From contig NZ_CP049298.1 in NCBI RefSeq assembly GCF_011058315.1, forward strand, positions 1,674,001-1,738,000: 64,000 nucleotides of DNA, written 5' to 3'. Position numbers and translations under genes: made by a program. The number at the start of each line of letters is the position of its first letter. Position 1 is the stretch's first letter. Shown piece after piece: positions 2,835-19,818 of this stretch. The notes under the pieces were generated by a model. The model did no database searches, had not been told where the DNA came from, and saw nothing but the letters and a program-made list of their open reading frames with translations. The DNA is from Chryseobacterium sp. POL2. Lineage in GTDB: Bacteria; Bacteroidota; Bacteroidia; Flavobacteriales; Weeksellaceae.

Positions 2835-2857
2835 GTTATATATTAATCAAAAAATGA

Positions 2858-4953: not shown

Positions 4954-4975
4954 GATTATATATAATAAAATAACT

Positions 4976-5083
4976 GTACCCTAAAGTTTAGGTACTATCT
5001 AAATTTTCTAAGTTTCCTTTTAAAAAAGGATAACTATAATTCTCAATGTTATTTTACTATTGCTGCATAATAGTGCAAATATA
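4976..5083 (-). promoter_or_regulatory. Promoter and structured leader of the MFS gene
   Basis: On the minus strand TATATTTG (plus 5076-5083) matches the Bacteroidota -7 box TAnnTTTG. No good -33 TTG is found, because the IS3-family element begins at about 5087. The leader contains TCCTTTT-AA-AAAAGGA arms (plus 5015-5030) and a GTACC..TAAA / TTTA.GGTAC hairpin (plus ~4977-4995), an arrangement that could attenuate translation. Confidence 0.5.
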
Positions 5084-5173
5084 ATGTATTAGCCCGTAAT
5101 AACCGAGCACATTAATTGTATTTAATCTTTTTTATTACTTTTGTATCGGACAAGCTGATCCGATGGTGATATA

Positions 5174-6223
5174 TTATACCGAAGGATTTATTGAAGGGGT
5201 GTTACTGTAAGTAATTGCCCCTTTTATCATTGACTGAAGAGCTATTTCATTTCTTCGTGGCATTGAGCCACTTGAAATGAGGACAAGCTGAACCTCAGGA
5301 TCCTTATTGCCCGATGGTATGTCATCATTTTCTTTTCGCTGGCTTTCGGCGTACTTTTCCCTGTATTCTACAGGAGAACAGTATTCCAGTCTATGAAATA
5401 TCCAATCCGTGTTGTAGTCATTAATAAATTGATTAATACTGTTATAAGCTTCCTCAAAGGAAGAAAATGTTTCTGTTTGCAACACCTGTTCTTCCAGGGT
5501 GCGGTGAAACCGCTCTATTATCCCGTTGCATTGCGGTGACCGTACAAACGCTTTGGACACCTCCAATCCCAGGAATTTCATTTCATTCATAAAATCAGCA
5601 GAGTCATACTGCGAGCCATGGTCGCTTCTTAATTGCAACTTCATTCCTTTACACACATCCTTACCTACCGAACCGAAAGTCTTCCGTACAGCGGCCCTAA
5701 CAGGCTCCATGGCGGCAAACCGGTTGCCTTTCCTTGCAATATGCCATGAGATAATCTCATCGTTAAAGTGATCGATCACACCAAAGAACCAATGCCAACC
5801 TGACCCATCAATCCAAAACCTCTTCCCGTCAGTGGCCCACATTACATTGGGTGCATCCGTGATTATAGTACCATCATGTTCGCGCTTATTCGTCTTCCCG
5901 GGCCTTCTGTAGGGGCTCAGCAGGTTGTTTTCCCGCATGATGCGGTTCACACGTGCCTTGCCGGCTACCAGAGCGTTTATCTTCCTTTTACCCATGCGCT
6001 TCTTCACTTTCAGATAACCTTCAGCGTTGAATGTACTCTTCTTAATTTCTTCCTTAATCTCCTGTAAAACCTCTTCATCGCTATGCTTGGGTTTTCTGCC
6101 CCGTTTCCCTGTTTTGGGAGTAGGGTTTTCATACCAGGTGCTGCTGCTGTAGCCGACTACCTTGAATATCAAACGCTTCGGATATGGTTTCCCGGTTAAT
6201 GGATAATGTTCCTCTATCAGCAT
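5174..6223 (-). CDS. IS3-family transposase OrfB (rve integrase core)
   Basis: 349 residues when started at its own ATG. HTH_21-like region at ~50-110, followed by an rve/DDE catalytic core: D132 in the WATDG motif, D201 in RSDHGSQ and E237 in IIERFHRTLEEQ, with the usual 35-residue D-E spacing of IS3 elements. The reading frame is open upstream of the ATG back to the A9 run inside orfA, so the active transposase is probably an OrfAB fusion made by -1 frameshifting, with this product made separately or not at all. The catalytic triad is intact and the gene could be functional. Its C-terminus ends 11 residues after a short SNTPSINPSV tail. Confidence 0.92.
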   Translation of the reverse strand: MLIEEHYPLTGKPYPKRLIFKVVGYSSSTWYENPTPKTGKRGRKPKHSDEEVLQEIKEEIKKSTFNAEGYLKVKKRMGKRKINALVAGKARVNRIMRENNLLSPYRRPGKTNKREHDGTIITDAPNVMWATDGKRFWIDGSGWHWFFGVIDHFNDEIISWHIARKGNRFAAMEPVRAAVRKTFGSVGKDVCKGMKLQLRSDHGSQYDSADFMNEMKFLGLEVSKAFVRSPQCNGIIERFHRTLEEQVLQTETFSSFEEAYNSINQFINDYNTDWIFHRLEYCSPVEYREKYAESQRKENDDIPSGNKDPEVQLVLISSGSMPRRNEIALQSMIKGAITYSNTPSINPSV

Positions 6224-6228
6224 GGAGA

Positions 6229-6510
6229 TTATTTCCTTTTTAGTTTTGCTGCCAATTCGTTCTTTTTTTTTGTGAGTTCGAGCTCCATCTGCAGTTGCCC
6301 GATCTTACGCTCGGCAGCACCCAGCCTCGAATCGTCGGGTTTACGTTTGAACCCGTCGGTACCACTCTCGATAAATTGATCCCGCCAAAGGTTGATATCA
6401 GCCAGAGTAACTCCGTATTCACGGCTAAGCAGCTCCGGATCCTCTCCACGCAACAAGGATAAAACTAATTCAGCCTTGATTTTCGATGTAAAATTTTTCC
6501 TCTTTTCCAT
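6229..6510 (-). CDS. IS3-family transposase OrfA (HTH domain)
   Basis: 93 residues with a helix-turn-helix of the HTH_Tnp_1 type at ~8-45 (KIKAELVLSLLRGEDPELLS.EYGVT) and a leucine-zipper-like coiled coil at the C-terminus. It ends 5 bp before the orfB ATG. Codons near residue 82 are formed by AC-A9-G, a slippery run; shifting back one base there leads into the open orfB frame. OrfA binds the inverted repeats in related elements, and the shifted fusion is the transposase. Start ATG at 6510 lies ~30 bp inside the right inverted repeat. Confidence 0.9.
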   Translation of the reverse strand: MEKRKNFTSKIKAELVLSLLRGEDPELLSREYGVTLADINLWRDQFIESGTDGFKRKPDDSRLGAAERKIGQLQMELELTKKKNELAAKLKRK

Positions 6511-6591
6511 AGCAGTTGTAAAAATAACTTTTATTTTTTACTGCTCGGTTTATTTGAGGGCTAATATAAATTTTAAAATCAACTATCCTAA

Positions 6592-6726
6592 ATCGTTATC
6601 TTAGAAAATCCGTTCATACCTATTCCTGATGAACTAAACACCGAACAAGAAGATGACATAGTGGGATTGTGGAGCTGGGATGGGAAAGGAAAAGTTGTTG
6701 TAAATTGTACATTTCATAATAAATGA
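6592..6726 (+). pseudogene. C-terminal remnant of a gene cut by the IS3-family element
   Basis: An open frame of ~44 codons with no start, beginning 25 bp after the IS end and closing with TGA at 6724. The readable part includes NPFIPIPDELNTEQEDD and ends in VVVNCTFHNK. Composition (acidic, low-complexity-free) looks like real protein. I do not recognise the family. The frame is closed by TAA at 6589 toward the IS, so the insertion probably deleted or displaced the 5' part; no matching 5' part is seen on the left side of the IS. Confidence 0.45.
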
Positions 6727-6747
6727 TTGCTAAATTAGATACACCAT

Positions 6748-7320
6748 ATGAATCAACTAATAAACTATATCAAAACCTATGTCGCATTATCAGATGAAGA
6801 GTGCGAAGTGCTCATGTCTTTATTTGAAATAAGGAAACTGCGAAATAATGAGGTGTTTTTTGAAGAAGGGCAAATAGCAAATGAACTCTATTTTGTAACG
6901 AAAGGCTGTATCCGATTATTTTACAAAGTGGATGTGGATGAGAAAACAGCTTTTTTCTATTCGCAAGGGCAATTTATATGTGCTGGAGAAAGCTATAATC
7001 TAGGTATTGCTGCTAAAGAGAATTATCAGTCTATGGGTCAATCTGAGATAGTTATATTGGATAAGAAGAAGGTAGAAACTTTGCTCCAAAAAGATTCCAA
7101 GTTTGAAGCAATAGGACGTATAGCTACCGAAAATGAATTGATTGCCAGTCAAAAGATAATTGCATCTTTTGTTACTCAAACAGCCGAAGAGCGATACCTT
7201 GAATTATTAGAAAGCAATAGCGAACTTTTTCAGAATGTGCCTCAACAATATATTGCATCTTTCCTCGGTGTATCACCTGAAACATTGAGCCGCATCAAAA
7301 GTCGCATTCTGAAACGATGA
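6748..7320 (+). CDS. Crp/Fnr family transcriptional regulator
   Basis: 190 residues: cyclic-nucleotide-binding-like beta roll at ~10-115 (the EVFFEEGQIANELYFVTKGCIRLFY segment is typical) and a short C-terminal winged HTH, where VPQQYIASFLGVSPETLSRI forms the recognition helix. No cysteine cluster of the FNR type and no arginine matching the cAMP phosphate contact, as usual for Bacteroidota homologues, so the effector is unknown. It is followed directly by a perfect palindrome CTTGACAATCGTCAAG and the SDR gene at 7383, which it very likely controls. In many flavobacteria such regulators control a neighbouring NAD(P)-binding or efflux gene. Confidence 0.92.
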   Translation: MNQLINYIKTYVALSDEECEVLMSLFEIRKLRNNEVFFEEGQIANELYFVTKGCIRLFYKVDVDEKTAFFYSQGQFICAGESYNLGIAAKENYQSMGQSEIVILDKKKVETLLQKDSKFEAIGRIATENELIASQKIIASFVTQTAEERYLELLESNSELFQNVPQQYIASFLGVSPETLSRIKSRILKR

Positions 7321-7323
7321 TTT

Positions 7324-7369
7324 CTTGACAATCGTCAAGTACAATAGCTAATTCATCACCCTATCTTTA
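7324..7369 (+). promoter_or_regulatory. Crp/Fnr-type operator and promoter of the SDR gene
   Basis: CTTGAC-AATC-GTCAAG (7324-7339) is a perfect palindrome of the TTGAc-N4-gTCAA class bound by Fnr/Dnr-like regulators. TATCTTTA at 7362-7369 resembles the Bacteroidota -7 box. The palindrome centre would sit roughly 43 bp before transcription start, the class II activator position. It starts 4 bp after the regulator gene's stop. Confidence 0.62.
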
Positions 7370-7382
7370 CAGCAAAAAGGAC

Positions 7383-8231
7383 ATGAAAAAAGTATTAGTT
7401 GCTGGAGCTACTGGTTATTTAGGGAAACACATTGTCAATGAGCTAAAAAGTAGAGGATACTGGGTAAGAGTATTAATCAGAAAAGAAAGCCAAAAGAAAT
7501 TGTTCAAAGATGTGGACGACTTTTTTGTAGGAGAAATAACCATGCCCAAAACACTTGTTAGTATTGCAGAAAATATAGATTGGGTGTTTTCTACCATTGG
7601 CATCACAAGGCAAAAAGAGGACTTGACTTACATGGATGTAGATTATCAAGGAAATGTGAACTTGTTATACGAAGCTAAAAAATCAGGAGTAGAGAAATTT
7701 GAATATATTTCTGCCATTAATGGAGATAAACAAAGACACTTAAAGATTTTTGAGGCAAAAGAACGTTTTGTAAATGAATTGAAATCGTCAGGTTTGGACT
7801 ATTGCATTATGCGTCCTAATGGTTTTTTCTCAGATATGAAGGACTTTTTAGAAATGGCTAAGAAGGGGCGAGTTTACTTGTTTGGTGATGGACAGTTTAA
7901 GCTCAACCCTATAGATGGTAAAGATCTAGCAGTTGTTTGCGTTGACAAAATGATTGCTGGCAACAGAGAGGAAACTGCTGGAGGACAAGAGATACTGACA
8001 CAAGAGGATATTGCCAAAATAGCATTGCGAGTTTTGAATAAACCTCTCAAGATTACTTTTCTGCCAGATTGGACTCGCAAACTCTCTATTTGGGTGTTGC
8101 GAACATTCACATCTTCCAAAGCATATGGTCCATTTGAATTTTTCCTTTCAGCTATGGCTCAGGATAATATTGCAAATCAATATGGCAAGTTAAAGTTGGA
8201 GGATTTTTATATGACGATTTTGAAGGAATAA
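7383..8231 (+). CDS. NmrA-like atypical SDR family NAD(P)-binding protein
   Basis: 282 residues. The N-terminal Rossmann motif GATGYLG at 8-14 and the VRVLIRKESQ segment that follows are those of atypical short-chain dehydrogenases (NmrA / YwnB group). No YxxxK catalytic pair at the classical spacing is evident, so it may sense redox state or reduce an unidentified quinone or carbonyl compound. No signal peptide; cytoplasmic. Its start is 63 bp after the Crp/Fnr gene, with the operator between them, which suggests regulation by that protein. Confidence 0.85.
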   Translation: MKKVLVAGATGYLGKHIVNELKSRGYWVRVLIRKESQKKLFKDVDDFFVGEITMPKTLVSIAENIDWVFSTIGITRQKEDLTYMDVDYQGNVNLLYEAKKSGVEKFEYISAINGDKQRHLKIFEAKERFVNELKSSGLDYCIMRPNGFFSDMKDFLEMAKKGRVYLFGDGQFKLNPIDGKDLAVVCVDKMIAGNREETAGGQEILTQEDIAKIALRVLNKPLKITFLPDWTRKLSIWVLRTFTSSKAYGPFEFFLSAMAQDNIANQYGKLKLEDFYMTILKE

Positions 8232-8255
8232 TTATTGCCAAATAGAATCTATCAA

Positions 8256-8282
8256 GAATAAAAATATTCTTTCCTACCTTTG
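8256..8282 (+). promoter_or_regulatory. Promoter of the umuD operon
   Basis: TACCTTTG at 8275-8282 matches TAnnTTTG. Immediately upstream GAATA-AAAA-TATTC (8256-8269) is a perfect palindrome overlapping the promoter spacer, placed where a repressor could block it. Whether this is an SOS operator is not known. Confidence 0.45.
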
Positions 8283-8286
8283 CTCC

Positions 8287-8727
8287 ATGAATAAAACAAA
8301 CCTCAAAATACATCCATCCGACCAAAGTCTAGAACTCTCTTTGCCCTATGCAGATGGAGGAATCAAGGCTGGGTTTCCTAGTCCAGCGCAAGACTATATT
8401 GAAAGTGCTATCGACTTGAATAAGGAGTTGATAAAACATCCTGCATCCACTTTCTATGGACGTGTAAAGGGTGATAGCATGATAGATGCTAATGTGCATG
8501 ATGGCGATATTCTAGTGATTGACAAATCGCTAGAGCTTCAGAACGGTGATATGGCCGTTTGCTTTATTGATGGTGAGTTCACTATCAAATACATCAAACT
8601 AGAAAAAGATGTTATTTGGCTAGAACCAGCCAACGAGAATTATGAACCAATAAAAGTGACAATCGAAAATGATTTCTTAATTTGGGGAATTGTAACGTAT
8701 TGTATTCAAAATAAGAGGAGGAGATGA
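8287..8727 (+). CDS. umuD: UmuD-like autoproteolytic subunit (Peptidase S24)
   Basis: 146 residues, the usual UmuD length, with no N-terminal DNA-binding domain as in LexA. Self-cleavage site Ala28-Gly29 followed by FPSPAQDY; catalytic Ser64 in GDSMIDA and Lys101 in FTIKYIK. In the known system RecA filaments trigger cleavage and the shortened UmuD' pairs with UmuC to form error-prone polymerase V. Here umuD opens an operon with a DUF1801 gene (4-bp overlap) and umuC. The promoter TACCTTTG lies just upstream. Carriage by the island fits the frequent finding of umuDC/rumAB/mucAB on plasmids. Confidence 0.93.
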   Translation: MNKTNLKIHPSDQSLELSLPYADGGIKAGFPSPAQDYIESAIDLNKELIKHPASTFYGRVKGDSMIDANVHDGDILVIDKSLELQNGDMAVCFIDGEFTIKYIKLEKDVIWLEPANENYEPIKVTIENDFLIWGIVTYCIQNKRRR

Positions 8728-9089
8728 AAGAAGAAACAATAGAAACATACATCCAAAAGTTTCCTGAAAATATTCAAGAGATTTTAAAGAGAGTGCGAGA
8801 AATAATTTTGTCGTGCAACACTGAATTAGAAGAAACTATAAAGTACGGAATACCAACTTTTATATTACATGGTAATTTGGTGCACTTTGCTGCATATAAG
8901 AAACATCTAGGCTTTTATCCAGATCCGTCAGGTGTTGAAGCTTTTAAAGATAAATTAGAAGGATATACCATATCTAAAGGAGGTATACAATTTCTATACA
9001 CTGAATCCATTCCTTACGACCTTATTGCTGAAATTACACTATTTCGTGTAAAAGAGAATATAGAAAAAGCACAAAAGAAGTCTGTTTAA
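8724..9089 (+). CDS. DUF1801 family protein
   Basis: 121 residues of the DUF1801 / YdhG-like fold (PF08818): ETIKYGIPTF, LVHFAAYKKHLGFYP and the GxIQFxYTESIPYDLI segment are the family landmarks. Members are small cytoplasmic proteins, sometimes called iron-chaperone-like; biochemical role uncertain. Its ATG overlaps the umuD stop (ATGA) and its stop is 1 bp before the umuC ATG, so the three genes are translationally coupled. Insertion of this gene between umuD and umuC is not the arrangement seen in enterobacterial operons and could mean a role in the polymerase system or simple hitch-hiking. Confidence 0.85.
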   Translation: MKEETIETYIQKFPENIQEILKRVREIILSCNTELEETIKYGIPTFILHGNLVHFAAYKKHLGFYPDPSGVEAFKDKLEGYTISKGGIQFLYTESIPYDLIAEITLFRVKENIEKAQKKSV

Positions 9090-9090
9090 T

Positions 9091-10347
9091 ATGATAGGAC
9101 TCATCGACTGTAATAATTTCTTCGCATCATGTGAGCGAGTTTTCAATCCAAATTTGGATGGAAAACCTATTGTTGTGCTTTCGAATAATGATGGAGCAAT
9201 AATTGCAAGAAGTGAAGAGGCTAAGAGGTTAGGTGTGAAGATGGGTGTGCCATTCTATCAAATCAAAGACTTAATAAGACAACAAAATATCAATGTATTC
9301 TCTTCAAATTATACACTTTATGGAGATTTATCAAGGCGAGTGATGTCCATTTTAGCTGAGCAAGTTCCCGAAATAGATGTGTATTCTATTGATGAAGCAT
9401 TCTTGGACTTGGCTGGTATCGAAAACTTTTCAGAATTTGGACAGAAACTAGTGAGAACAACTTGTCGAAGTTCTGGTATACCTGTCTCACTTGGTATTGC
9501 TCCAACACGCACTTTAGCCAAATTGGCTAATAGCTTTGCCAAACGATATCCTGCTTATAACAAAGTTTGTATAATGGATTCTGATGAAAAAAGAATTAAA
9601 GCTTTACAGAAGACTCCAGTAGGATACATTTGGGGCATAGGGAGGCAAACGACCAAGACTTTAGAATATTATGGAATCAAAACAGCTTACGATTTAACTC
9701 AAAAATCTCGTTCATGGGTGCGTAGCAAGATGACTGTTGTAGGTGAACGTACTTGGTTAGAACTACATGGAGAGCCTTGCATCACTTCTGATTCTGTAGT
9801 TGAAAAACAACAAATTTGCACCTCTCGCAGTTTTGGTGAAATGGTTACAGACTTCGATTCTTTACGAGAATCTATTGCTAACTTTGCATCAGCTTGTGCT
9901 GCGAAGTTGAGAAAACAAAATTCATTAACACAGGGCATGATTGTTTTTGCTTATACCAATCGCCACAGAGAAGATTTACAACAATATTTTCCATCTAAGG
10001 CAATGCAATTTTCTTTCCCTACTGCTGATACAATGGAGATAATCAAGCATGCTAGTTGTGCTCTGAAAGAGATTTACAGAGAGGGTTATGAATACAAAAA
10101 AGCTGGAGTTATACTTACGCATATCATCAGCGAAACCAATTATATGCACGACCTTTTTGACCCAAGAGATAGAGAAAAGCAAAAACGCATTTCGCAAATG
10201 ATAGATTCCATCAATCAGAAGAATGGCACAAACTGCATTAAACTAGCTGCTCAAGGCGTTGGAAAGGCTGATTGGAATCTGCGAAGAGATTTTCTATCAA
10301 AGTGTCCTAGTACGAAGATTGGGGATATAATAGAGATAAGAGGATAG
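9091..10347 (+). CDS. umuC: UmuC-like Y-family DNA polymerase
   Basis: 418 residues, full length. Y-family palm signature: Asp6 in GLIDCNNFFASCERVF and Asp101-Glu102 in VYSIDEAFLDL, the metal-binding carboxylates. Helix-hairpin-helix region at ~170-215 (VGYIWGIGRQTTKTLEYYGI), little-finger domain 240-350 and the C-terminal UmuC-specific region (DUF4113-like, ending KIGDIIEIRG). Performs translesion synthesis with processed UmuD. It is the third gene of the umuD operon, and the next gene starts 3 bp after its stop, so the immunity-like gene may share the transcript. Confidence 0.95.
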   Translation: MIGLIDCNNFFASCERVFNPNLDGKPIVVLSNNDGAIIARSEEAKRLGVKMGVPFYQIKDLIRQQNINVFSSNYTLYGDLSRRVMSILAEQVPEIDVYSIDEAFLDLAGIENFSEFGQKLVRTTCRSSGIPVSLGIAPTRTLAKLANSFAKRYPAYNKVCIMDSDEKRIKALQKTPVGYIWGIGRQTTKTLEYYGIKTAYDLTQKSRSWVRSKMTVVGERTWLELHGEPCITSDSVVEKQQICTSRSFGEMVTDFDSLRESIANFASACAAKLRKQNSLTQGMIVFAYTNRHREDLQQYFPSKAMQFSFPTADTMEIIKHASCALKEIYREGYEYKKAGVILTHIISETNYMHDLFDPRDREKQKRISQMIDSINQKNGTNCIKLAAQGVGKADWNLRRDFLSKCPSTKIGDIIEIRG

Positions 10348-10350
10348 AAA

Positions 10351-10677
10351 ATGGAACAAAGATCAAGATTACTAGACTATAAGCAAGATATAAGTAGAGG
10401 GTGTGTATTTCGCTGTAAAGCAAAATATCCCTATGAGGAGGTCGTAGACTTTATGGTTGCCGAGTCTTTTGATAATGGAGAATTACGTTATGTCTTGTAT
10501 GTTATATCTGGATATAAAGCAGGTTCTCTATTGGTAAGATTACCTAAAGATGCACTATCCACTAATTTCGGTCTAAATTGGAAGTGGGTTGTTGAGAACT
10601 GGAATGATTGGATTTACTTAGATTGTGGAGTTGAGGATGTTTGGGTAGTAGAAAAATCAGTTCCTACTCTTGATTAA
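10351..10677 (+). CDS. Imm45-like immunity protein
   Basis: 108 residues. The sequence pattern RGCVFRCKAKYPYEEVVDFMV, then SGYKAGSLLVRLP, then a WVVENWNDWIYLDCGVEDVWVVE finish agrees with my memory of the Imm45 family of polymorphic-toxin immunity proteins. No cognate toxin is seen in the window. The ATG is 3 bp after umuC, suggesting cotranscription, and the IS256-family element starts ~7 bp past its stop, so a partner gene downstream may have been displaced. If the family call is wrong it is a small cytoplasmic protein of unknown role. Confidence 0.6.
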   Translation: MEQRSRLLDYKQDISRGCVFRCKAKYPYEEVVDFMVAESFDNGELRYVLYVISGYKAGSLLVRLPKDALSTNFGLNWKWVVENWNDWIYLDCGVEDVWVVEKSVPTLD

Positions 10678-10749
10678 AGGAGACTGTAAAGTAAACTGTG
10701 TCAAATAATAAATTCATTTTTTTATTACTTTTACACAATAGTTTACATT

Positions 10750-11964
10750 ATGGAAGATTTTGATTACAAGTCCTTTCAAGCCAAGGCGCTGGAGCAGCTA
10801 AAAGCCGGCAAGCCTCTTTTAGGAAAAGACGGTGCATTTGCGCCATTACTGGAGAACCTTCTGAATGCAGCATTGGAGGGTGAGATGGATGTTCACATGG
10901 ATGAAGAGGAACGCTTATCGGGTAATCGCCGCAATGGATATAATCGCAAGCAAGTTCAGACTTCCCTGGGTGAGGTTACAGTTCACACGCCACGAGACAG
11001 GGATTCCCGGTTTGAACCGGAGTTTATCAAAAAGCGGGAGCGTATATTGGCCGAAGGTGTAGCTGACCGCATCATTGGCTTATACGCGTTAGGCAACAGT
11101 ACGCGGGAGATCAGCGACTGGATGGAGGAGAACCTGGGTAATCGGGTTTCAGCCGATACAATCAGCGCCATTACCGACAGGGTGCTGCCTGAACTTCAAT
11201 CCTGGCGTACCCGTCCCCTTGATTCAGTCTATCCCATAGTATGGATGGATGCCATCCACTACAAGGTCATGGATGATAAAAACCGACCGGTTACCCGCGC
11301 CATTTACAATGTGCTCGGCGTTGACCGCAACGGGCATAAGGATCTGCTGGGAATGTATATTTCCAGGAGTGAAGGTGCCAATTTCTGGCTCTCGGTACTG
11401 ACTGATTTACAAACACGGGGAGTACGGGATATTTTAATAGCCAGTGTGGATAATCTGGCCGGTTTCTCCGATGCGATCAATAGTGTGTTCCCGGAAACCA
11501 TCGTTCAGAGCTGCATTGTGCATCAGGTGCGCAACTCCCTTAAATATGTTGCCAGCAAGTATCAAAAAGCCTTCATGAAGGATCTCAAGCCCGTTTATCA
11601 GGCTGTAAGCAAGGAACAGGCAGAAGTGGAGCTGGACAATCTGGAGTTGAACTGGGGCGAACAATATCCACTGGTGATAAAATCCTGGCGGGACAACTGG
11701 CATAAACTATCAGCCTATTTCCAATATACTGACGCCATCCGGCGACTGATCTATACCACCAACACGGTGGAGGGATACCATCGTCAGATTCGCAAGGTGA
11801 CAAAAAACAAAGGGGTTTTCACAAACGACACGGCGTTGGAGAAACTGGTTTATCTGGCCTACCGTAATATACGTAAAAAGTGGACTATGCCCTTGAAAGA
11901 TTGGGGACAGACAGCCCAGCAACTGGCTATCCTTTTTCCGGATAGATTTAAACTTTTCGATTAA
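10750..11964 (+). CDS. IS256-family (mutator-type) transposase
   Basis: 404 residues, the normal length for IS256. N-terminal DNA-binding part followed by the RNase H-like DDE core: first Asp in VWMDAIHYKV (~161), second in IASVDNLAGFSDAI with the C-H signature CIVHQVRNSLKYV, and the catalytic Glu in TTNTVEGYHRQIRKVTKNKG, the hallmark of the mutator superfamily. All motifs are intact, so it may be active. Expression probably starts inside the left inverted repeat region (TTATTACTTTTACACAATAG). Confidence 0.96.
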   Translation: MEDFDYKSFQAKALEQLKAGKPLLGKDGAFAPLLENLLNAALEGEMDVHMDEEERLSGNRRNGYNRKQVQTSLGEVTVHTPRDRDSRFEPEFIKKRERILAEGVADRIIGLYALGNSTREISDWMEENLGNRVSADTISAITDRVLPELQSWRTRPLDSVYPIVWMDAIHYKVMDDKNRPVTRAIYNVLGVDRNGHKDLLGMYISRSEGANFWLSVLTDLQTRGVRDILIASVDNLAGFSDAINSVFPETIVQSCIVHQVRNSLKYVASKYQKAFMKDLKPVYQAVSKEQAEVELDNLELNWGEQYPLVIKSWRDNWHKLSAYFQYTDAIRRLIYTTNTVEGYHRQIRKVTKNKGVFTNDTALEKLVYLAYRNIRKKWTMPLKDWGQTAQQLAILFPDRFKLFD

Positions 11965-12052
11965 TTTATTGACAATAACAGGAATTCAATATTTTTCATT
12001 AGTTTTGTGGTGACCAACAAAACGATGGCGATGCTTTGCACCATTGGAACAT

Positions 12053-12086
12053 AAAAACGATTAGGGGGTCGACCCCTAACCGTTTT
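12053..12086 (+). terminator. Strong hairpin in the IS256-family element tail
   Basis: AAAACGATTAGGGG and CCCCTAACCGTTTT form 14-bp arms with one mismatch around GTCGAC-type loop bases, followed by T residues. It sits 90 bp after the transposase stop and inside the element, so it most likely ends the transposase transcript and shields against read-through. Confidence 0.75.
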
Positions 12087-12252
12087 TGACCAACTAAAAC
12101 TCAGGTCTCAGCATTACCCATTAGAAAAAAGGTGCCCAATTAACTATAAAAATAAAACCTGACACAGTTTAATTTACACAACCAGGATTTGGTTTTCGAG
12201 AATAGGAAAAAGGTAATTGACTATATTGTCAATTCTATGATTTAATTTAAGA

Positions 12253-12483
12253 TTATGACTTTGATGCGTTTTCAGTACAAAATTTATCCACCACCATTCC
12301 AAGCTGAAATATCGTTTTTACTTGGTGTCGTTTTTTCAGAGAATGAATAATTTTCTCAATAGAAGACTTTGAGTATATGGAGAAATTTTTTGTTTCTTTA
12401 AAATTTTCAGCTATCTCATTTTGACTGTAACCTTTCTTGAGTAACTCAATAATAGCTTTCTCTACATCGTTCATTTCGAGCAT
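12253..12483 (-). CDS. Small LuxR-type helix-turn-helix protein
   Basis: 76 residues consisting almost wholly of a GerE/LuxR-like HTH: KAIIELLKKGYSQNEIAENF, then the recognition region YSKSSIEKIIHSLKKRHQVKTIFQL. No receiver or sensor domain. Small stand-alone HTH proteins of this sort accompany mobilization genes in flavobacterial plasmids. It lies on the same strand as the mob-rep genes, 113 bp beyond the membrane protein, and could regulate them. A palindrome AATTGAC-TATATT-GTCAATT lies just past its stop (12215-12234). Confidence 0.65.
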   Translation of the reverse strand: MLEMNDVEKAIIELLKKGYSQNEIAENFKETKNFSIYSKSSIEKIIHSLKKRHQVKTIFQLGMVVDKFCTENASKS

Positions 12484-12596
12484 AATTTTTGGTAAAAATA
12501 CATTTTTATTTGAAAAATGAGTTTGTAGAGAAAGCTAATTTTTATTTAGGTAAATCTTTAACCAGCAACAATGAAGTTTTTGTAGTAATTTTAAAA

Positions 12597-13232
12597 CTAT
12601 TTTTCTAATCTCGCCTCAAAACCCTCCTTAAATCTCAAAAAATCTTCTGCTTTTTTAGGATTATTTTTAATCCAAAGTTGCATAATTTCAGTGTTTTCTT
12701 TTAGGATTTTTATTTCTTTTTCATCAATTATTCTTTTTCCTTCACCAGCAATTTCATTTAAAATATCTTGGCGAAGTACGGTTTTTGCTTTGATGCTTTC
12801 TTTATACCAAGTTGTTGCGGAATTAATGGAAAAAATCAAAGTGAAAATCCCCAAAATAAAAGTTCCAAATCCTCCCCAAATAAATTTCCCATTCCTTTTT
12901 ATTTTCCTTTCCAGGTTGCCATAAAAATCAATGGTTTCCTGAGAGAGTACTGTTTCTGTTTTGGTAGGAATATTGGCAAGAAATTCAACTCTTTTTATTT
13001 GTTCCAGCTCATAAAAACTCAATATTTCCTTATAGATTTCTTTCACTACTTCAAAATCTAATTGTTTTTGACCAATCGCCAAAACTAAATCTTCAATATC
13101 TGCACTCAATTTTGCATTAGATTTCAGATTTTCGATGTTGGATGTAACTGCTTTCTCGTTTGATTTTATCACATTTTCAAGCAATTCCATTCCATTGCTT
13201 TTCGTTTCTTCGTTTTGTTTTTGATTTTCCAT
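12597..13232 (-). CDS. Single-pass membrane protein beside the relaxase gene
   Basis: 211 residues. Residues ~1-120 are charged and helical (coiled-coil like), one membrane segment at ~140-158 (FGTFILGIFTLIFSINSA), and a charged C-terminal helix region. I recognise no domain. It begins 12 bp after the relaxase stop, in the same operon, and similar proteins sit in this position in mobilizable plasmids of the group, so a role in mobilization or plasmid maintenance is a fair guess but unproven. Confidence 0.6.
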   Translation of the reverse strand: MENQKQNEETKSNGMELLENVIKSNEKAVTSNIENLKSNAKLSADIEDLVLAIGQKQLDFEVVKEIYKEILSFYELEQIKRVEFLANIPTKTETVLSQETIDFYGNLERKIKRNGKFIWGGFGTFILGIFTLIFSINSATTWYKESIKAKTVLRQDILNEIAGEGKRIIDEKEIKILKENTEIMQLWIKNNPKKAEDFLRFKEGFEARLEK

Positions 13233-13244
13233 TTTTTGATTTTT

Positions 13245-14165
13245 TTATCTTGATTTTCTCTTCTTTTTCCTTAATAATTCGTCGTCTGAATTGAAGACAT
13301 AAGTTGGTTGTAAAAATTGCTCAATTGCTTTTCCAACTTCTTTAATTACGGAATTGCTTTTTAGTTCATTTCCATTAATTTCTTGGTTAGAATTTTCAGA
13401 AAAAATAGTTTCGTTATTTAATTTCTTCTCATTATTTTCATTCAGAATTGCTTTGATGTCTTTAATTTTCAACTTGTTGGTAATTTCAGAAAGTTTGTAC
13501 CCTGACTTATAAATCCTTTCTGTATTGGGATTTTTGTCTTTCTCCATCACAATTCGCATTCCCGAAACGCCAACTTTCGCATTCGTAGATAACTGAACTT
13601 CAAAACCTTTTGCCTTCATTTTTAGAATAAGTTCATCAAAGTTTTTCGCTGTTTTTAATGTTTCTTTTAAGTTTTTTAGCATCAATGCTTTTTTCTGAAT
13701 CCCTATTTCCACATCGGTTAACAACCCTTTTTCTTTGCAAACTGCTCGAACTGCTTCTCCAAATCTTCGTCCAATATCGTGTGATTTTACCGTACATTTC
13801 CCTGAAATGTCAATTCTGTTCACAATAAAATGAAGGTGTTTTTGTTTTGTGCTGTTATGAATATCCAATCGAAATTGGTTGTTTTCGGTCACTCCAATTT
13901 TTTCTAAAGCTTTGGTGGCAATTTCTGTAAATTCTTGATCCGTCAAATTTCTTCCGATTTCGTCTGGCTGAGAAATATATCCCGTTAAAGCCCATTTTTT
14001 CACGTTTGAATTTCTATCTGCGACGGTTTTCATTTCTTGAAATTGAGCTTCAGTCGTTGAACTCAAAATGCAATTAGAAGCCACCATTTCCGCAGTTCCT
14101 TTGTCGTTTCCGTTGTATTCTAAAGCGATTTTGGTGATGGTTCTTGTGGTCGCTGAATTATTCAT
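13245..14165 (-). CDS. Relaxase / mobilization nuclease (MobA-like)
   Basis: 306 residues. Relaxase core (PF03432) in the first ~170: the three-histidine metal site is visible as H103 and H110-L-H112 in KQKHLHFIVNRID with N116. The N-terminus contains candidate catalytic tyrosines (Y17, Y63); which one nicks oriT is not clear. The C-terminal third is a charged, variable tail. It would cut at oriT and carry the strand during conjugal transfer helped by another element. Its start overlaps the MobC-like gene by 8 bp, so the two are coupled. Confidence 0.9.
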   Translation of the reverse strand: MNNSATTRTITKIALEYNGNDKGTAEMVASNCILSSTTEAQFQEMKTVADRNSNVKKWALTGYISQPDEIGRNLTDQEFTEIATKALEKIGVTENNQFRLDIHNSTKQKHLHFIVNRIDISGKCTVKSHDIGRRFGEAVRAVCKEKGLLTDVEIGIQKKALMLKNLKETLKTAKNFDELILKMKAKGFEVQLSTNAKVGVSGMRIVMEKDKNPNTERIYKSGYKLSEITNKLKIKDIKAILNENNEKKLNNETIFSENSNQEINGNELKSNSVIKEVGKAIEQFLQPTYVFNSDDELLRKKKRKSR

Positions 14166-14607
14166 TTTTCTGAATTTTTGAATATAAATAGTGATGAATC
14201 AAATCGACTGTAGTTTCAATTTTTGCTAATATTTCTTTCTTATTTTCAAAAACAGTCCATTCTCGATTTCGCAACAAATTGGTTATTTTTTTGAAATTAT
14301 TACCAAATTGAAGTAATGTTTCATCGGTTTTAAATTCATTGATTTTTAATTCTTTTTCAAACAAAACATTTCGGATATAAGTTGATAGTTTTAGCGGAGA
14401 TTTTTCTTGTTTTTGAAGGAGTGTTTCATATTCAGAATGGGTCATTCGTATCGAAATCACTTTATCTAATTTTTTATTTTCTTTGGTTTTCAAACCACCT
14501 TTCCTACCTAATTCTTGGAAATGTTTTTTTCTTTTTTCCTGAGCAATTTTGACTTCATTTTCTTGGGTGGCTTGGTTGATAAATTCTTGTAAAAAATCGT
14601 TTTTCAT
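14158..14607 (-). CDS. MobC-like mobilization accessory protein
   Basis: 149 residues, basic. The central VISIRMTHSEYETLLQKQEKSPLK segment resembles the ribbon-helix-helix region of plasmid mobilization accessory proteins, followed by a helical domain (NNFKKITNLLR), the MobC-type core. Such proteins bind oriT and assist the relaxase encoded by the overlapping downstream gene. oriT is most often directly upstream of this gene, which would be the ~70 bp at 14608-14676, but no nic consensus could be recognised there. Confidence 0.8.
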   Translation of the reverse strand: MKNDFLQEFINQATQENEVKIAQEKRKKHFQELGRKGGLKTKENKKLDKVISIRMTHSEYETLLQKQEKSPLKLSTYIRNVLFEKELKINEFKTDETLLQFGNNFKKITNLLRNREWTVFENKKEILAKIETTVDLIHHYLYSKIQKNE

Positions 14608-14676
14608 TGCTTTAATTTCAGAGTTTTAAAAAATATTTCTGACGATAGGAAGAAATCAAAAATCCCAATTTTACAA

Positions 14677-15585
14677 TCAGCGACCACGCTTATTGTAAAC
14701 TTTGGGTACTTTTTGCACTAAAGAACCGCCGAGTTTTTCTTCTAAGTTTGGAGAAGACATTGCCCAATCATTCAAATCCTTGAAATCTTTGTACAAAATC
14801 CTGTCATCTTCCACATTTTCAAATTCCTTCTTAAGAGTTTCTATAGCTCTATTCCCTGCTTCGTCATTGTCAAAATAAAGCCCAATATTTTTGTGATTTT
14901 CGAGTAAACTTTTAATTTTAGAAATCATCGAAACTGAATTTAAAATGATGTAATCAGACTTTTCATCGCTCAAAGATTTTTCTATATTTTTAAAGGAGAG
15001 AAAATCAAAAAAACCTTCAAAGATTTTCAAATTTTCAGAACCATTTTTAATCATTGAAACATCTTTTTTTCCTAAACAAATTTTGGAATATTTATTGCGA
15101 ATTTCGTAACCTCCAGAATCGTTTTTAAAACCAATTCCGAAGTAATTTTTGTCATTCATTCGATAATGAATTTCTTTTAAAAATTTTCTTTGTTCCCAAA
15201 CTTTTCTATTTAATAAATATTGAATTAAAGCAGGGTGTGAAATTTCATCTTCTACCACTAAAATTTTATAATTTTTTTCTTCAATTTCTTCTAAATTCTC
15301 TTGCTTCTGAAAGGAAGATGAAAAATCCATTTCTGAAATGATTTTCAAAGCTTCTGAAACCGAACATTTTTTGATTTCTTGTACCAAAGAAATTGAATCA
15401 TAAACTTTACCTGTACCAAAATCTAGTGCCGTGTTTTTTTTCAAACTCACGGAAAGGCTCGGAACTATTTCTTCTCTATTAATGGCAAAATACATCGCTA
15501 AATCTCCAGAAATTTTGGCTGGAAAAACATTTAATCTTGCCAACAATTCTGTTAATAAAATATTCTTTGCTTGTTTAATATTCAT
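14677..15585 (-). CDS. Toprim-domain DNA primase of plasmid type
   Basis: 302 residues. N-terminal CHC2-type region (VPSLSVSLKKNTALDFGTGKVYDSISLV) that keeps the family shape but has lost the zinc-binding cysteines. The Toprim domain at ~185-280 has E190 (LKIFEGFFDFLSF) and D239-N-D241 (IGLYFDNDEAGN). The family is common on Bacteroidota plasmids and conjugative transposons, where it primes replication of the transferred strand. Located between the mob genes and the iteron origin, on the same strand. A basic KVYNKRGR tail ends the protein. Confidence 0.88.
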   Translation of the reverse strand: MNIKQAKNILLTELLARLNVFPAKISGDLAMYFAINREEIVPSLSVSLKKNTALDFGTGKVYDSISLVQEIKKCSVSEALKIISEMDFSSSFQKQENLEEIEEKNYKILVVEDEISHPALIQYLLNRKVWEQRKFLKEIHYRMNDKNYFGIGFKNDSGGYEIRNKYSKICLGKKDVSMIKNGSENLKIFEGFFDFLSFKNIEKSLSDEKSDYIILNSVSMISKIKSLLENHKNIGLYFDNDEAGNRAIETLKKEFENVEDDRILYKDFKDLNDWAMSSPNLEEKLGGSLVQKVPKVYNKRGR

Positions 15586-15623
15586 TTTTTTTGATTTTTT
15601 TTCTTTTCAAAAGCAAAAAATAT

Positions 15624-15949
15624 CGGAAACATTATCTTGCTTTATGGAGTTTTTTATTATTTTTAAATTATTGAAATTGAACATATTATAGTTTGTTCAT
15701 TTATCCACATTTATTATTTTTTTTATAGAAATTAAAAAATTAATAACATTAATATAATTAAGCATCAATCTATTAATGCTTAAAATCTTTGATAGATACT
15801 ATGAAATTGGATTTCTTTTTTTCAAAAAAACGGAAACATTATCCCTAATTGCGGAAACATTATCCAAAATCTCGGAGATAATATCTTTTATTACGGAAAT
15901 AAAATCCACTAATGCGGAAACAAAATCCCTATTTTCGGAAACATTATCC
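15624..15949. other. Candidate plasmid replication origin (iterons, AT-rich region, DnaA box)
   Basis: Between the primase gene and the end of rep: an outlying iteron CGGAAACATTATCT at 15624-15637, a perfect DnaA box TTATCCACA at 15701-15709, ~120 bp of very AT-rich DNA (15640-15830) that could melt, and six regularly spaced iterons at 15831-15949. This is the classical make-up of an iteron-controlled origin used by Rep_3 initiators, and the initiator is the next gene. Confidence 0.85.
15831..15949 (+). repeat. Six iterons, exact 21-bp period
   Basis: CGGAAACATTATCC or close variants start at 15831, 15852, 15873, 15894, 15915 and 15936, always 21 bp apart (two helical turns). Copies 1, 2 and 6 are identical; 3 (CGGAGATAATATCT), 4 (CGGAAATAAAATCC) and 5 (CGGAAACAAAATCC) differ at few positions. 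The last copy overlaps the rep stop codon. Likely binding sites for the Rep protein. Confidence 0.9.
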
Positions 15950-16936
15950 TTTTATTTCTTCTAAAAGTTTGAAAACCGCTTTTATATAATTTTCTCCATC
16001 CAAACCATTTTTAATTTTCCTTTTTAAAATTCTTGATAAGCTTTCATAATCTCTGATTTGATAAAGATTTTTCATTATTTTTACTTGATTATCATTAAGC
16101 TTTCTCTTTACTTTTAAATAGTTTAATGCGCGATTGATTTGTAAAGTTTCTAGTGTAGGAAACTCTATATTTCCAACAGATTCTTTAGTATGATAAATGA
16201 CAAACAGAAAAGTGTCTTTTGTTCGAGAATAGTTGAAACTTATGTCATTAAAGGTGTCCAAATCTGCCTTTACTCTTTTCAAAAAATCTCTATCAAAACG
16301 ATAGCTTCCTTCATATTTATTTGGTGGAATATTAAGCTCTTTCAAAATCTGTCCATACTCTTTTGTTACTTGTTTGATTTTTTTAAATTTTAAAATCCAC
16401 AAAAGGAATCTCAACGTGTTACTAACTGATGTTTCATAAGGTAAATCTTTAAGTAATGAAAAATAATGATTCATATTGAGCAAATTCTTCATCACCGCTT
16501 TATCCATCTTAAAATAGATATATTTGTGATTCCAACTCGGCTCTAAAATAAAGGGTACTGCCCTAAAACCATTGATTTTCTCATCTTTCAACCTCATCCA
16601 GTTTATATTTGTCATGCTTATTAAGGCTTCTTGTATAGTAGCATTTTTCATTATCTGTTTAGGATTAAGCTGATTCAAAGGAATTGCAAATTCAACAATA
16701 CTTTGATTAGTCCAGCCTTGGTGATAATCGTCAATGGACAACTGAAATTCTCTTTTAGTATCAAAAGATTTCACATTAATAAAAAGAGACTGCTGTTCTT
16801 TAATGGCTGACAAAATCATTACAATTATCCGTTGCTCAATAATTGAGGTATTCTGGGTAATCAAAATTTCCCTAAAATCATTGGAAATCAAAACTTTCTT
16901 TCGGGATTTTGGTACAAAGACTTTCTCCGACTTCAT
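15944..16936 (-). CDS. Rep_3 / RepB family replication initiator
   Basis: 330 residues. Two winged-helix domains expected for the Rep_3 superfamily (PF01051): N-terminal half from LITQNTSIIEQRIIVMILSAI to ~190, where ETSVSNTLRFLLWILKF marks the usual LYE-like helix region, then the C-terminal half with YEGSYRFDRDFLKRVKADLD and DTFLFVIYHTK. It should bind the 21-bp iterons directly downstream of its gene. The start codon overlaps the stop of the DUF3853 gene by one base (TAATG), so the two are coupled. An island with a complete Rep and origin suggests a plasmid that integrated. Confidence 0.9.
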   Translation of the reverse strand: MKSEKVFVPKSRKKVLISNDFREILITQNTSIIEQRIIVMILSAIKEQQSLFINVKSFDTKREFQLSIDDYHQGWTNQSIVEFAIPLNQLNPKQIMKNATIQEALISMTNINWMRLKDEKINGFRAVPFILEPSWNHKYIYFKMDKAVMKNLLNMNHYFSLLKDLPYETSVSNTLRFLLWILKFKKIKQVTKEYGQILKELNIPPNKYEGSYRFDRDFLKRVKADLDTFNDISFNYSRTKDTFLFVIYHTKESVGNIEFPTLETLQINRALNYLKVKRKLNDNQVKIMKNLYQIRDYESLSRILKRKIKNGLDGENYIKAVFKLLEEIKG

Positions 16937-17223
16937 TATCTGCCGATTTTTTGGTTTTTCTTTAAAAGTTCCAATGCTTTTTCTACATCGATGATTATTT
17001 TCCTTCCATTTTGAATGATTGCTTCATTTATTACACCGCTCTTTTTTAGTCTTTTTGCGGAAGATTCACTACAATTTAGAAGTTTTTGGATACCAGAAAT
17101 ACCATAAACATATTTCTTTTCAGTAGGTTCATTCGTTGTTGAAATTCCGGATATACTTGACTGGATGAGTTCCACTAACTCACTACCTTGCATCTGCCAT
17201 ATTGGCTTTTCTTTTAGGTTCAT
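16936..17223 (-). CDS. DUF3853 family protein (excisionase-like HTH)
   Basis: 95 residues. Pattern VYGISGIQKLLNCSESSAKRLKKSG followed by NGRKIIIDVEKALELL is a MerR/excisionase-type winged helix typical of DUF3853 (PF12964), found in Bacteroidota plasmids and integrative elements. It heads the rep gene with a 1-bp overlap, so it may control rep expression or act as recombination directionality factor for the tyrosine recombinase at 18387. A palindromic region upstream (17353-17379) may be its operator. Confidence 0.83.
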   Translation of the reverse strand: MNLKEKPIWQMQGSELVELIQSSISGISTTNEPTEKKYVYGISGIQKLLNCSESSAKRLKKSGVINEAIIQNGRKIIIDVEKALELLKKNQKIGR

Positions 17224-17352
17224 TTTTTGAAATTTTTCTGTTAAACAATAGCCGTGTACTTTGGCATTTCTATGCTCGAACAGGACAAATTTCTAAAGTT
17301 TTTTTGGTGGTATTTTGTGGTAAAAAGTATATTTTTTTTGTAAAATAAAATA

Positions 17353-17379
17353 GCAAATAATTGAAAATCAATCATTTGC
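17353..17379. promoter_or_regulatory. Imperfect palindrome upstream of the DUF3853-rep operon
   Basis: GCAAATaATTGA-aaa-TCAATcATTTGC, 27 bp, lies in the 243-bp spacer 130 bp before the DUF3853 start; a second short palindrome (AACATTTAATTAATGTT) lies near 17422. Position suggests an operator or promoter control site for the rep operon, or a recombinase arm site. No proof from sequence. Confidence 0.35.
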
Positions 17380-17466
17380 TTTAAAGTATTTATTTTGTTT
17401 TGTGGTTTTTCTCCAATATAACATTTAATTAATGTTATTTGGTATCAAATCTTTTAAAAACCATTG

Positions 17467-18390
17467 TTATTTGACACAAAAAAAATCGTAAAAAATTTTA
17501 TTTTCATCTTTTTTATAGCCATGTTTTGATATTGATCCTTTGTTTAAATCTAATAAACTGCAAACATGACTTACCCATTTATCTTTATTTAATTTTAAGC
17601 CTTTAACTTTTTTTGATAATTCATTCAAAGGAAAATTGATTAAAGTTCTATTTGTAACACTTTTTTTACAATCTGTTTTTGGGTTTCTATTATTGATTAT
17701 CAAATGAAAATTTTCTTTCGTAAGGATTTCTATATTAATAATTTCATTTTCAGCCAAAATTTTCCATAATTCATAAGTATAGTCAAACTTAAAAATATCT
17801 TCATCCATTTCTAAAACTTCCTCATTGGGAAAAGAATTTCTAATCTCTTTTAGTATTTCTGATGATGCATGATAAGCAAGTGTATAATAATCTTCCTTAA
17901 TCCATAAAAACACCTCCTTACCAATTTTAAATTCAGAATTTATTTTTACTATCTCAGTTTTGAAATAGTCACATTCCTTATCTTTTAGCCAATCAGGCAT
18001 TTTATTTTTTTCATCTCTAATTTCTCTAATATCATTTTCAAGGATAGAAATTTTATTTAAATATCTATATTCTAAAAATTTTATAAAGAGCATCTCTCTA
18101 TCAAAATTCTTAATTTTATTATAATTAGACTTATAATTTATTTTATATTCTTCAAGTGTTTTGATCAAACTATTTAATATGGCAGGATCAATTTTATTTT
18201 GAATGATAATCATAATCAATCTCTCAAAATCAATATTTTCTAATTTTGTAAAATCAAACTTGTTTTTCTTTACTATATTATATTCATTTTCATCATAGAT
18301 AAAAGTATCTAATAACAAAGATTGGTTTAAATTCTTAAAAATATCTTTGATTTCTCTTATTTGTGCTAAAATTTCTTCTGGAATTATCAT
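17467..18390 (-). CDS. Protein of unknown function coupled to the integrase
   Basis: 307 residues, rich in Lys, Glu, Ile and Asn; predicted cytoplasmic, mostly helical, no membrane segment. Its ATG overlaps the integrase stop by 4 bp (ATGA), so it is translated with the recombinase. The C-terminal part INFPLNELSKKVKGLKLNKDKW recalls C-terminal regions I have seen in proteins next to Bacteroidota integrases, but I cannot name a family. No catalytic motif is evident. Very low GC content, like the rest of the backbone. It could be an accessory recombination or regulatory factor. Confidence 0.65.
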   Translation of the reverse strand: MIIPEEILAQIREIKDIFKNLNQSLLLDTFIYDENEYNIVKKNKFDFTKLENIDFERLIMIIIQNKIDPAILNSLIKTLEEYKINYKSNYNKIKNFDREMLFIKFLEYRYLNKISILENDIREIRDEKNKMPDWLKDKECDYFKTEIVKINSEFKIGKEVFLWIKEDYYTLAYHASSEILKEIRNSFPNEEVLEMDEDIFKFDYTYELWKILAENEIINIEILTKENFHLIINNRNPKTDCKKSVTNRTLINFPLNELSKKVKGLKLNKDKWVSHVCSLLDLNKGSISKHGYKKDENKIFYDFFCVK

Positions 18391-19661
18391 ATTTTATCAA
18401 ATTTTTTCATAGCATTAGCCTTAATGTTATCAGCAATATCTATGTAAGGTTTCATAGATTTGTAGTCAGAATGTCCCGTCCATTTCATTACCACGTTTAC
18501 AGGTATTCCAAGTGAAAGAGCATTGCAGATAAAGGTTCTTCTTCCTGCATGAGTTCCTAGAAGTTTATATTTTGGTGTTACTTCGTCTATTCTATCATTT
18601 CCTTTGTAGAATGTAATTCTTATAGGTTCATCTATTCCTGCTAATTCTGCAAGTTCTTGCAAATAATCGTTCATTTTTTGGTTAGAAATTACTGGCAAGG
18701 CTTTATTTTTGGCAAAAGGAATTTTTTTATATTTTTCTAAAATTTCTTTAGTATTTTTATTAAGTTCAATTACTAAACTATCGCCAGTTTTAACGGTTGT
18801 GATTTCAAAATAATCTTCTTTTATGTCGGAACGCTTCAAATTATACGCATCACTGTATCTAATTCCGCTGTAGCAAAGGAAAATAAAGACATCTTTCACT
18901 CTTTCTAAATAAGTTTTATTGTTGGGTACTTTATATTCTTTCAGCTTTTTCAGTTCTTCTTGGTTTAGGAATATGATTTTCTTTTGAGTAGATTTTAATT
19001 TTGGTTTAAAGGTTTCGTAAGCAAAATTATTATTATATCCTTTAGATTTTGCCCATCTCAAAAACCATTTCAAAAATCCTATTTGTTTTTCGATGGTACT
19101 ATTTCTCATTTCGGGTACACTCCTTAAAAATTCCACATAATTCGTTAAGCCTTTCTCATTTAAATATGAAAAGGATAATTTAGGGTTGAAATCCCACAAA
19201 TGATTTTTTACTGTTCCAAATTTTTTGTAAGTAGAAGTAGTCCAATTTTTCAATCTACCATTTTCTTTTACAAATTCATCAAAATAGTCAAAAAACAGTT
19301 TCTCTTTAATTGGGCTTCCTTGATTTTCGATGGCTAAATTGAATAGATGCTTTATTTCCTCTTTATTTGGGATTCTTTCTTCAATTTCAAATCTCTTAAA
19401 AATATTTTGTATTTCAAGTTCGTATTCAGATAACTTTGCATTGATATCCGATGCAGATTGTTTGAGTTTATTTGTGCAGTTGTTTCTTACTTTTCTTTTA
19501 GAACTGTCCCATTTGTCCATATCTATTCTGATACCAGTAGAAAGTTCAATTCTATTTCCAGAATAAGTTAGTCGAATTCTTATTGGTACATTGTCAGAAA
19601 TTATTTTACCTTTATACTTTCTGTTCTCTAAATCAAAGACTATACTTCTTTTAATAATCAT
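18387..19661 (-). CDS. Tyrosine recombinase (site-specific integrase)
   Basis: 424 residues. Arm-type N-terminal domain (~1-95), SAM-like core-binding domain (~120-215) and catalytic domain with the full set R268 (CYSGIRYSDA), Lys in the TTVKTGD beta strand, H371-R374 (GTHAGRRTFI), H397 (WTGHSDYKSM) and nucleophile Y406 (PYIDIA). All residues are present, so it should be active. It is the last gene of the island, pointing inward, ~130 bp from the tRNA-like attachment sequence at 19794. It should catalyse integration and, with a directionality factor, excision of the element. Confidence 0.94.
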   Translation of the reverse strand: MIIKRSIVFDLENRKYKGKIISDNVPIRIRLTYSGNRIELSTGIRIDMDKWDSSKRKVRNNCTNKLKQSASDINAKLSEYELEIQNIFKRFEIEERIPNKEEIKHLFNLAIENQGSPIKEKLFFDYFDEFVKENGRLKNWTTSTYKKFGTVKNHLWDFNPKLSFSYLNEKGLTNYVEFLRSVPEMRNSTIEKQIGFLKWFLRWAKSKGYNNNFAYETFKPKLKSTQKKIIFLNQEELKKLKEYKVPNNKTYLERVKDVFIFLCYSGIRYSDAYNLKRSDIKEDYFEITTVKTGDSLVIELNKNTKEILEKYKKIPFAKNKALPVISNQKMNDYLQELAELAGIDEPIRITFYKGNDRIDEVTPKYKLLGTHAGRRTFICNALSLGIPVNVVMKWTGHSDYKSMKPYIDIADNIKANAMKKFDKI

Positions 19662-19662
19662 T

Positions 19663-19686
19663 TTTTTACACCCATTTTTACACCCA
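19663..19686. repeat. Tandem 12-bp repeat before the integrase start
   Basis: TTTTTACACCCA occurs twice in tandem (19663-19674, 19675-19686), overlapping the integrase translation start region. On the coding strand the second unit creates an ATG that reads M-G-V-K-K then stops on the integrase ATGA. Possible integrase arm-binding or translational control site. Confidence 0.4.
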
Positions 19687-19793
19687 CAAATGTATGAATT
19701 TTATGAACATTTAAGATACTAAAAGAAATGAAGTTTTTATAATCTATTGATTTTCAAATCAATTAAGTTTTAATGACACTTAAAGAAACTAAA

Positions 19794-19817
19794 GGTTAAA
19801 ATCCCTCCAACTCCACT
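19794..19817 (+). other. Candidate attachment site: 3' end of a tRNA or tmRNA gene
   Basis: GGTTAAAATCCCTCCAACTCCAC resembles the 3' part of a T arm plus acceptor strand (loop TTAAAAT, stem CCCTC, acceptor CAACTCC, discriminator A) as in tmRNA and some tRNAs, but no gene body precedes it. It sits between the integrase gene and a terminator hairpin that would belong to the RNA gene. The intact gene and second att copy should lie at the left end of the element, outside the window. Confidence 0.55.
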
Positions 19818-19818
19818 A

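Follow-up and report, generated by a model that had tools for sequence, protein, structure and literature searches.

The block of window positions 15624-15949 is best explained as the replication module of an integrative mobilizable element (IME) that resides at the 3' end of the tmRNA gene of Chryseobacterium sp. POL2 and that would replicate transiently in theta mode after its excision, a reading to which we assign a probability of roughly 0.8. The window, i.e. the whole stretch of 64,000 nucleotides analysed here, comprises bases 1,674,001-1,738,000 of the 3.24-Mb single-contig genome.

The six iterons at 21-bp period, the outlying iteron copy, the perfect DnaA box and the AT-rich stretch that had been named in the preliminary description were all found where it had placed them (Table 1). 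On the plus strand the iterons start at 15831, 15852, 15873, 15894, 15915 and 15936, i.e. with a period of exactly 21 bp. Three of the six are exactly CGGAAACATTATCC, the other three being the variants CGGAGATAATATCT, CGGAAATAAAATCC and CGGAAACAAAATCC, and the self-similarity score of the array is 175, whereas 50 shuffled versions gave 80 +/- 5 with a maximum of 92. The stop codon of rep (15944-15946) is overlapped by the last iteron (15936-15949) and, as rep is encoded on the minus strand, the array is located downstream of its own initiator gene, just as had been proposed. The block is positioned between this gene, whose product is predicted to have a RepE/pi fold, and the gene of a Toprim primase. 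Thus, the features that characterize an iteron replicon, i.e. an in-phase iteron array, an AT-rich region and a DnaA box, are all present, with the AT-rich stretch being the likely melting region. We refer to this origin as two-sided, meaning that the six-iteron array lies on one side of the melting region and the distal (outlying) iteron on the other.

Table 1. Features of the island and its origin in window coordinates.
Feature	Position	Strand	Basis or remark
Island part within the window	1..19818		ends mapped
Right attachment site (tmRNA 3' end repeated)	19803..19818	+	left copy G000:C1:1658833-1658848, outside the window
Two TTACACCC repeats	19666..19685	+	candidate recombinase arm sites
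Tyrosine recombinase (integrase)	18387..19661	-	domain matches
orf307	17467..18390	-	common to the elements of G184 and G232
DUF3853, small DNA-binding-type protein	16936..17223	-	stop overlaps rep start (TAATG)
rep, 330-aa initiator, RepE/pi fold (predicted)	15944..16936	-	frame, profile search, predicted structure
Six-iteron array	15831..15949	-	21-bp period, rep-sense core GGATAATGTTTCCG and variants; kept in relatives
AT-rich stretch	about 15710..15775		conserved CTTAATTATATTAATGTTATTAAT-type sequence
DnaA box, exact TTATCCACA	15701..15709	+	most relatives have a DnaA-box-like site here
Distal (outlying) iteron	15624..15637	-	CGGAAACATTATCT; matches own array across relatives
Toprim/DnaG-like primase	14677..15585	-	profile matches
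NikA/MbpA-like mobilization protein (PF21983)	14158..14607	-	profile matches
Relaxase (PF03432, MbpB-like)	13245..14165	-	profile matches
orf211	12597..13232	-	conserved after the relaxase in related elements

The island that harbours this origin starts at G000:C1:1658849, directly at the 3' end of the tmRNA gene (1,658,450-1,658,848), which was found by searching for a tmRNA-like sequence beside the recombinase gene. The tmRNA 3' end is repeated, with one mismatch in 16 bases, at the right attachment site, 35.0 kb from the tmRNA gene, resulting in an island length of 34,970 bp, of which about 15 kb (the left part) are located outside the window. When the recombinase side was compared with window 10.5-12.8 kb for direct repeats, no ends were revealed, the true left end being outside the window. 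The TTACACCC repeats occur close to both ends of the island and are likely recombinase arm sites, and a terminator-like hairpin just beyond the right end (19820-19853) is presumably the terminator of tmRNA. The earlier claim of a complete origin inside an integrated element that encodes both a relaxase and a tyrosine recombinase is thus confirmed, now with both ends of the element located.

On the minus strand the order is tyrosine recombinase, orf307, DUF3853, rep, origin, Toprim primase, NikA-like protein, relaxase and orf211. The island has the hallmarks of an IME, i.e. a site-specific integrase with attachment repeats at both ends, as also found in the elements of two related genomes (G184 and G232), and its own relaxase and NikA-like protein without, as judged by TraG-type genes, a complete conjugation apparatus. 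The only two TraG-type genes found in the genome are situated outside the island, at 1.787-1.815 Mb (G000:C1:1786660-1815004), and could belong to one or more helper elements, so a helper may be present.

The elements of G184 and G232, with recombinases 73% identical, have two copies of the tmRNA end each, 39.5 and 23.1 kb apart, respectively, and they resemble the window's island in their left end and in having arm sites in pairs next to the recombinase gene. A single copy is present in G074, G122, G133 and G316, i.e. in genomes without such a recombinase. In G074 and G122 a terminator-like hairpin directly follows the tmRNA gene, representing the unoccupied site. G316, the other species of the genus, had been expected to provide an empty site, but its right flank is unlike and its tmRNA gene is followed by the apparent left end of another element, so the unoccupied sites were taken from G074 and G122. 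A different, tRNA-like sequence is located at the attachment place of L051, whose recombinase is 72% identical. At L089 (G316), L102 (G133) and L092 (G243) the tmRNA is followed by a hairpin and paired GGTGCTA-type motifs, an arrangement that resembles the left end of a different type of element at the same site.

On the level of sequence profiles Rep matches Pfam Rep3_C only below the cut-off, and its profile yielded no relevant match among the sequences of solved structures, whereas a fold search did. The AlphaFold2 model of Rep (pLDDT 77.5) aligns in VIA-align with 1rep at a Z score of 16.0 and with 2nra at 15.7, both far higher than the scores of unrelated rows. In this model residues 11-252 resemble the two winged helices of RepE from plasmid F and pi from R6K (Z ~16), although the sequence identity is only 12-15%; the C-terminal ~75 residues are outside the match. 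According to the predicted structure Rep is thus a member of the RepE/pi fold, and the earlier name 'Rep_3 initiator' is correct at the fold level. The stop codon of DUF3853 and the start codon of rep share one base, so both proteins are probably co-produced and excision would be coupled to replication.

Relatives of Rep are encoded in 100 of 320 genomes of the Weeksellaceae, close ones (42-64% identity) in about two dozen, and none was detected outside the family at E 1e-15 in samples of 395 genomes of the phylum and 396 of the order. The layout of the window recurs in 16 further integrated Weeksellaceae elements and in seven plasmid-type relatives, and the array and the outlying copy have nearly equal spacing in 23 relatives. 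In both groups the rep stop codon is followed by six iterons (five in L049), ~60-70 bp, an AT-rich stretch, and a DnaA-box-like site at about +220 to +246 from the stop; several plasmids have this site in degenerate form. A single distal iteron then lies at +303 to +336. In the non-plasmid loci a tyrosine recombinase is present in all regions compared except L042, where the contig ends, and L058, a distant relative with a fragment only, and in most of them the primase gene directly follows the origin. At two loci, L057 and L058, a related primase is accompanied by a distant Rep with 22-24% identity; in L057 rep is followed by different repeats (CGGAATTGGACTCA).

The seven plasmid-type relatives (L002-L007 and L059) are found on plasmids or plasmid-like contigs. 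Three of them are complete circular plasmids, with L004 corresponding to L008, and we infer the plasmid state of the others from the shared backbone. In all these loci rep is preceded by ParA with its partner gene and by a Toprim gene unlike that of the window; ParA is full length in six, whereas the seventh locus is truncated and retains just the end of the gene. Close Rep relatives were found in PLSDB, a search of plasmid databases having been proposed in the preliminary description. The Rep proteins of the Chryseobacterium plasmids NZ_CP033919, NZ_CP094531 and NZ_CP033935 are 61-63% identical to that of the window, and six-iteron array and distal iteron are located at nearly the same positions. 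Unlike the window, however, these plasmids have the backbone ParA - orf - Toprim - rep and, in the compared regions, neither a related recombinase nor a relaxase nor a downstream primase. Moreover, the seven plasmid-type proteins form one branch of the Rep tree (support 100/99), with the window protein placed beside this branch with moderate support (88/89) on a long branch of its own. The iterons of the window are of the plasmid type (GGATAATGTTTCCG) whereas for the recombinase and the relaxase the closest counterparts are in G184, G232 and G133, a pattern suggesting that the rep-origin block has likely been swapped between plasmids and islands.

The preliminary description had suggested a plasmid that can live both free and integrated, i.e. 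a replicon stably inherited as a low-copy plasmid or as part of the chromosome. The complete origin, the intact Rep and the proximity of both Rep and the GGATAATGTTTCCG-type iterons to the plasmid-type relatives are compatible with this, and the conserved distal iteron could serve copy control. Nevertheless, we consider two stable states unlikely: neither the island nor any integrated element contains a match to ParA or its partner gene, i.e. judged by these two genes the island has no partition system of its own; no related recombinase occurs in the compared regions of the seven plasmid-type relatives; and the close Rep relatives in PLSDB sit in plasmids of another backbone. Thus, the integrated element and its complete origin stand, whereas the stable free form does not find support. 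As a plasmid-type partition gene is lacking, brief rather than stable replication is favoured, and by analogy excision with short-lived replication as in Salmonella genomic island 1 (SGI1) would fit better.

The distal iteron was compared with the arrays of 24 origins (window, 16 integrated and seven plasmid-type). It scores on average 20.9 bits against its own array and 14.3 bits against the arrays of others, with 0 of 20,000 permutations being as high, a result that is inflated by kinship; the own array is best or tied-best in 18 of the 24 origins. Arrays of the TTATCTCAA, TTTATCTCCC and TTATCTCCA type are each paired with a distal iteron of the same type, which is visible by eye. This matching indirectly supports the idea that Rep may bind to the iterons and drive replication. 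Since in most integrated elements the primase gene starts a short way downstream of the distal iteron, Rep might instead have been kept as a transcription regulator, repressing e.g. the primase and mobilization genes via the distal iteron, with replication being lost. This scenario is very improbable, as plasmid-type relatives without a downstream primase have the distal iteron at a similar distance, +324 to +336 from the rep stop, which argues for a part of the origin and not merely a primase operator; moreover, the AT-rich stretch is kept throughout and the DnaA box in most relatives, and regulation would need neither.

Among four close integrated elements 3 of 98 bases are variable in the iterons as compared to 48 of 196 elsewhere in the region (p = 1e-6 in Fisher's test, again inflated by kinship), i.e. 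variation in the iterons is ~eightfold lower than in the surrounding bases. The dN/dS ratio of rep is 0.035-0.22 between integrated copies, and judged from these values rep genes of the window's type are under purifying selection; as the window Rep is on a long branch, this selection is measured on the relatives and not on the window copy. Loss of Rep activity by mutation, which had been put forward as an observation that would speak against the earlier reading, is not observed, rep being full length and of a type under such selection. A natural example of decay is L055 (G231), where the recombinase gene is frameshifted, the iterons are degraded and no distal iteron can be recognised, a single case that probably illustrates the expected look of function loss. 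That the window copy is likewise a relic, i.e. a plasmid once trapped in the chromosome and now decaying, could be suggested by its load of insertion sequences, the split restriction gene and the existence of the decayed relative, but is hardly credible given an intact module in many integrated elements of several genera, rep dN/dS values well below 1, and full-length integrase, rep, primase and relaxase frames together with both attachment ends in the window's island.

Based on these findings we propose that the IME module would function as follows. The tyrosine recombinase would excise a circle, aided by DUF3853 as putative excisionase or regulator. Rep would bind the six iterons and the distal iteron and, together with DnaA, open the AT-rich stretch, leading to theta replication, with priming possibly being carried out by the element's own Toprim primase. 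The own relaxase and the NikA-like protein could then mobilize the circle via a conjugation system supplied in trans, and the circle would reintegrate after transfer. Since the chromosome apparently tolerates the origin in its integrated form, Rep must be kept silent or at a limited level in this state. Due to its several insertion sequences and the split restriction gene, this copy of the island might no longer move.

A direct precedent is SGI1, which replicates from iterons downstream of rep and in which a small helix-turn-helix gene, S004, is translationally coupled ahead of rep (S003) (PMC7826253, PMC7433901). Expression of SGI1 RepA in a cell with an integrated origin gave no transformants, implying that such an origin must stay silent while integrated. 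Like the window's island, SGI1 is an integrative mobilizable element with a plasmid-type initiator, multiresistance cargo, and iterons and a DnaA box directly downstream of rep, and its S004-rep coupling resembles that of DUF3853 and rep. The two systems differ, however, in that SGI1 has four GC-rich iterons of 16-17 bp instead of six at 21 bp plus a conserved distal iteron, an IncN2/N3-type RepA instead of a Rep type so far found only in Weeksellaceae, and trmE as target with an IncC helper instead of a tmRNA target. Furthermore, in the window, unlike in SGI1, the origin is immediately followed by the gene of a Toprim primase.

Three Bacteroidales elements, L109 (carrying cfxA), L112 and L113, share with the window the order recombinase - DUF3853/HTH gene - replication gene - Toprim primase; prompted by cfxA in L109 we take them to be related to Tn4555/NBU. 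In L109 MobC and relaxase follow, and the window's recombinase shares 62-64% identity with those of L112 and L113. In contrast to the window, where rep and iterons occupy the slot between DUF3853/HTH and primase, the Bacteroidales elements, e.g. L109 and L112, have an AAA_25 ATPase there, and 21-bp iterons are absent from this slot in all three elements. Conversely, an AAA ATPase at this place, the mark of the Tn4555/NBU type, is not found in the window's island. Before the primase L112 and L113 contain AATAAAGTGAAGTG-type repeats in both orientations, perhaps another type of origin. The circular Bacteroides 'plasmid' records OY725908 and OY725823 of PLSDB, which contain a related recombinase, were rejected as excised circles as they hold corA and lepA and are probably chromosome pieces; OY726019 (34 kb) was a further record considered among the circle candidates.

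According to a review from 2017 (PMC5704250), how mobilizable elements are maintained once excised is an 'unexplored world', and we found no description of the window's element family in the open-access literature. The kind of element is known from SGI1, but three aspects appear to be without precedent in that literature, namely the family in Bacteroidota, its two-sided origin and the presence of another replication gene in the common slot. For a broader view the arguments are about evenly balanced: in a family of Bacteroidota islands a plasmid initiator with a two-sided iteron origin would replace the AAA-ATPase gene of the Bacteroidales elements and, having several iteron specificities, the various island types could coexist as replicating units within a single cell. 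The proposed replication module of the island would be a second lineage, in Bacteroidota, beside SGI1 of the Gammaproteobacteria, the worked-out iteron example, it would offer about two dozen natural initiator/iteron variants for tests of specificity and incompatibility, and such an origin would ride on an island with Tet(X), Ere(D), CatB and other resistance genes.

The resistance genes of the island are located in G000:C1:1655001-1674500 (L070) and at window 3745-4953. Apart from Tet(X), Ere(D) and CatB, the cargo comprises a Tet(Q)-like tetracycline ribosomal protection protein below the Tet(Q)-specific cut-off, and a DfrA36-like reductase and a Tet-type efflux protein, both below the curated cut-offs. 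The island also carries several insertion sequences, UmuC-like genes and a split restriction gene. The same IS3-type transposase occurs twice in the same orientation (window 5174-6223 and G000:C1:1666522-1667571), bracketing dfr, catB, ere(D), tet(X) and the efflux gene, which possibly form a composite unit. Judged from the translations, UmuD- and UmuC-like genes are located inside the island at window 8287-10347, and the flank encodes a repetitive, probably secreted protein of 2028 residues (window 23135-29221).
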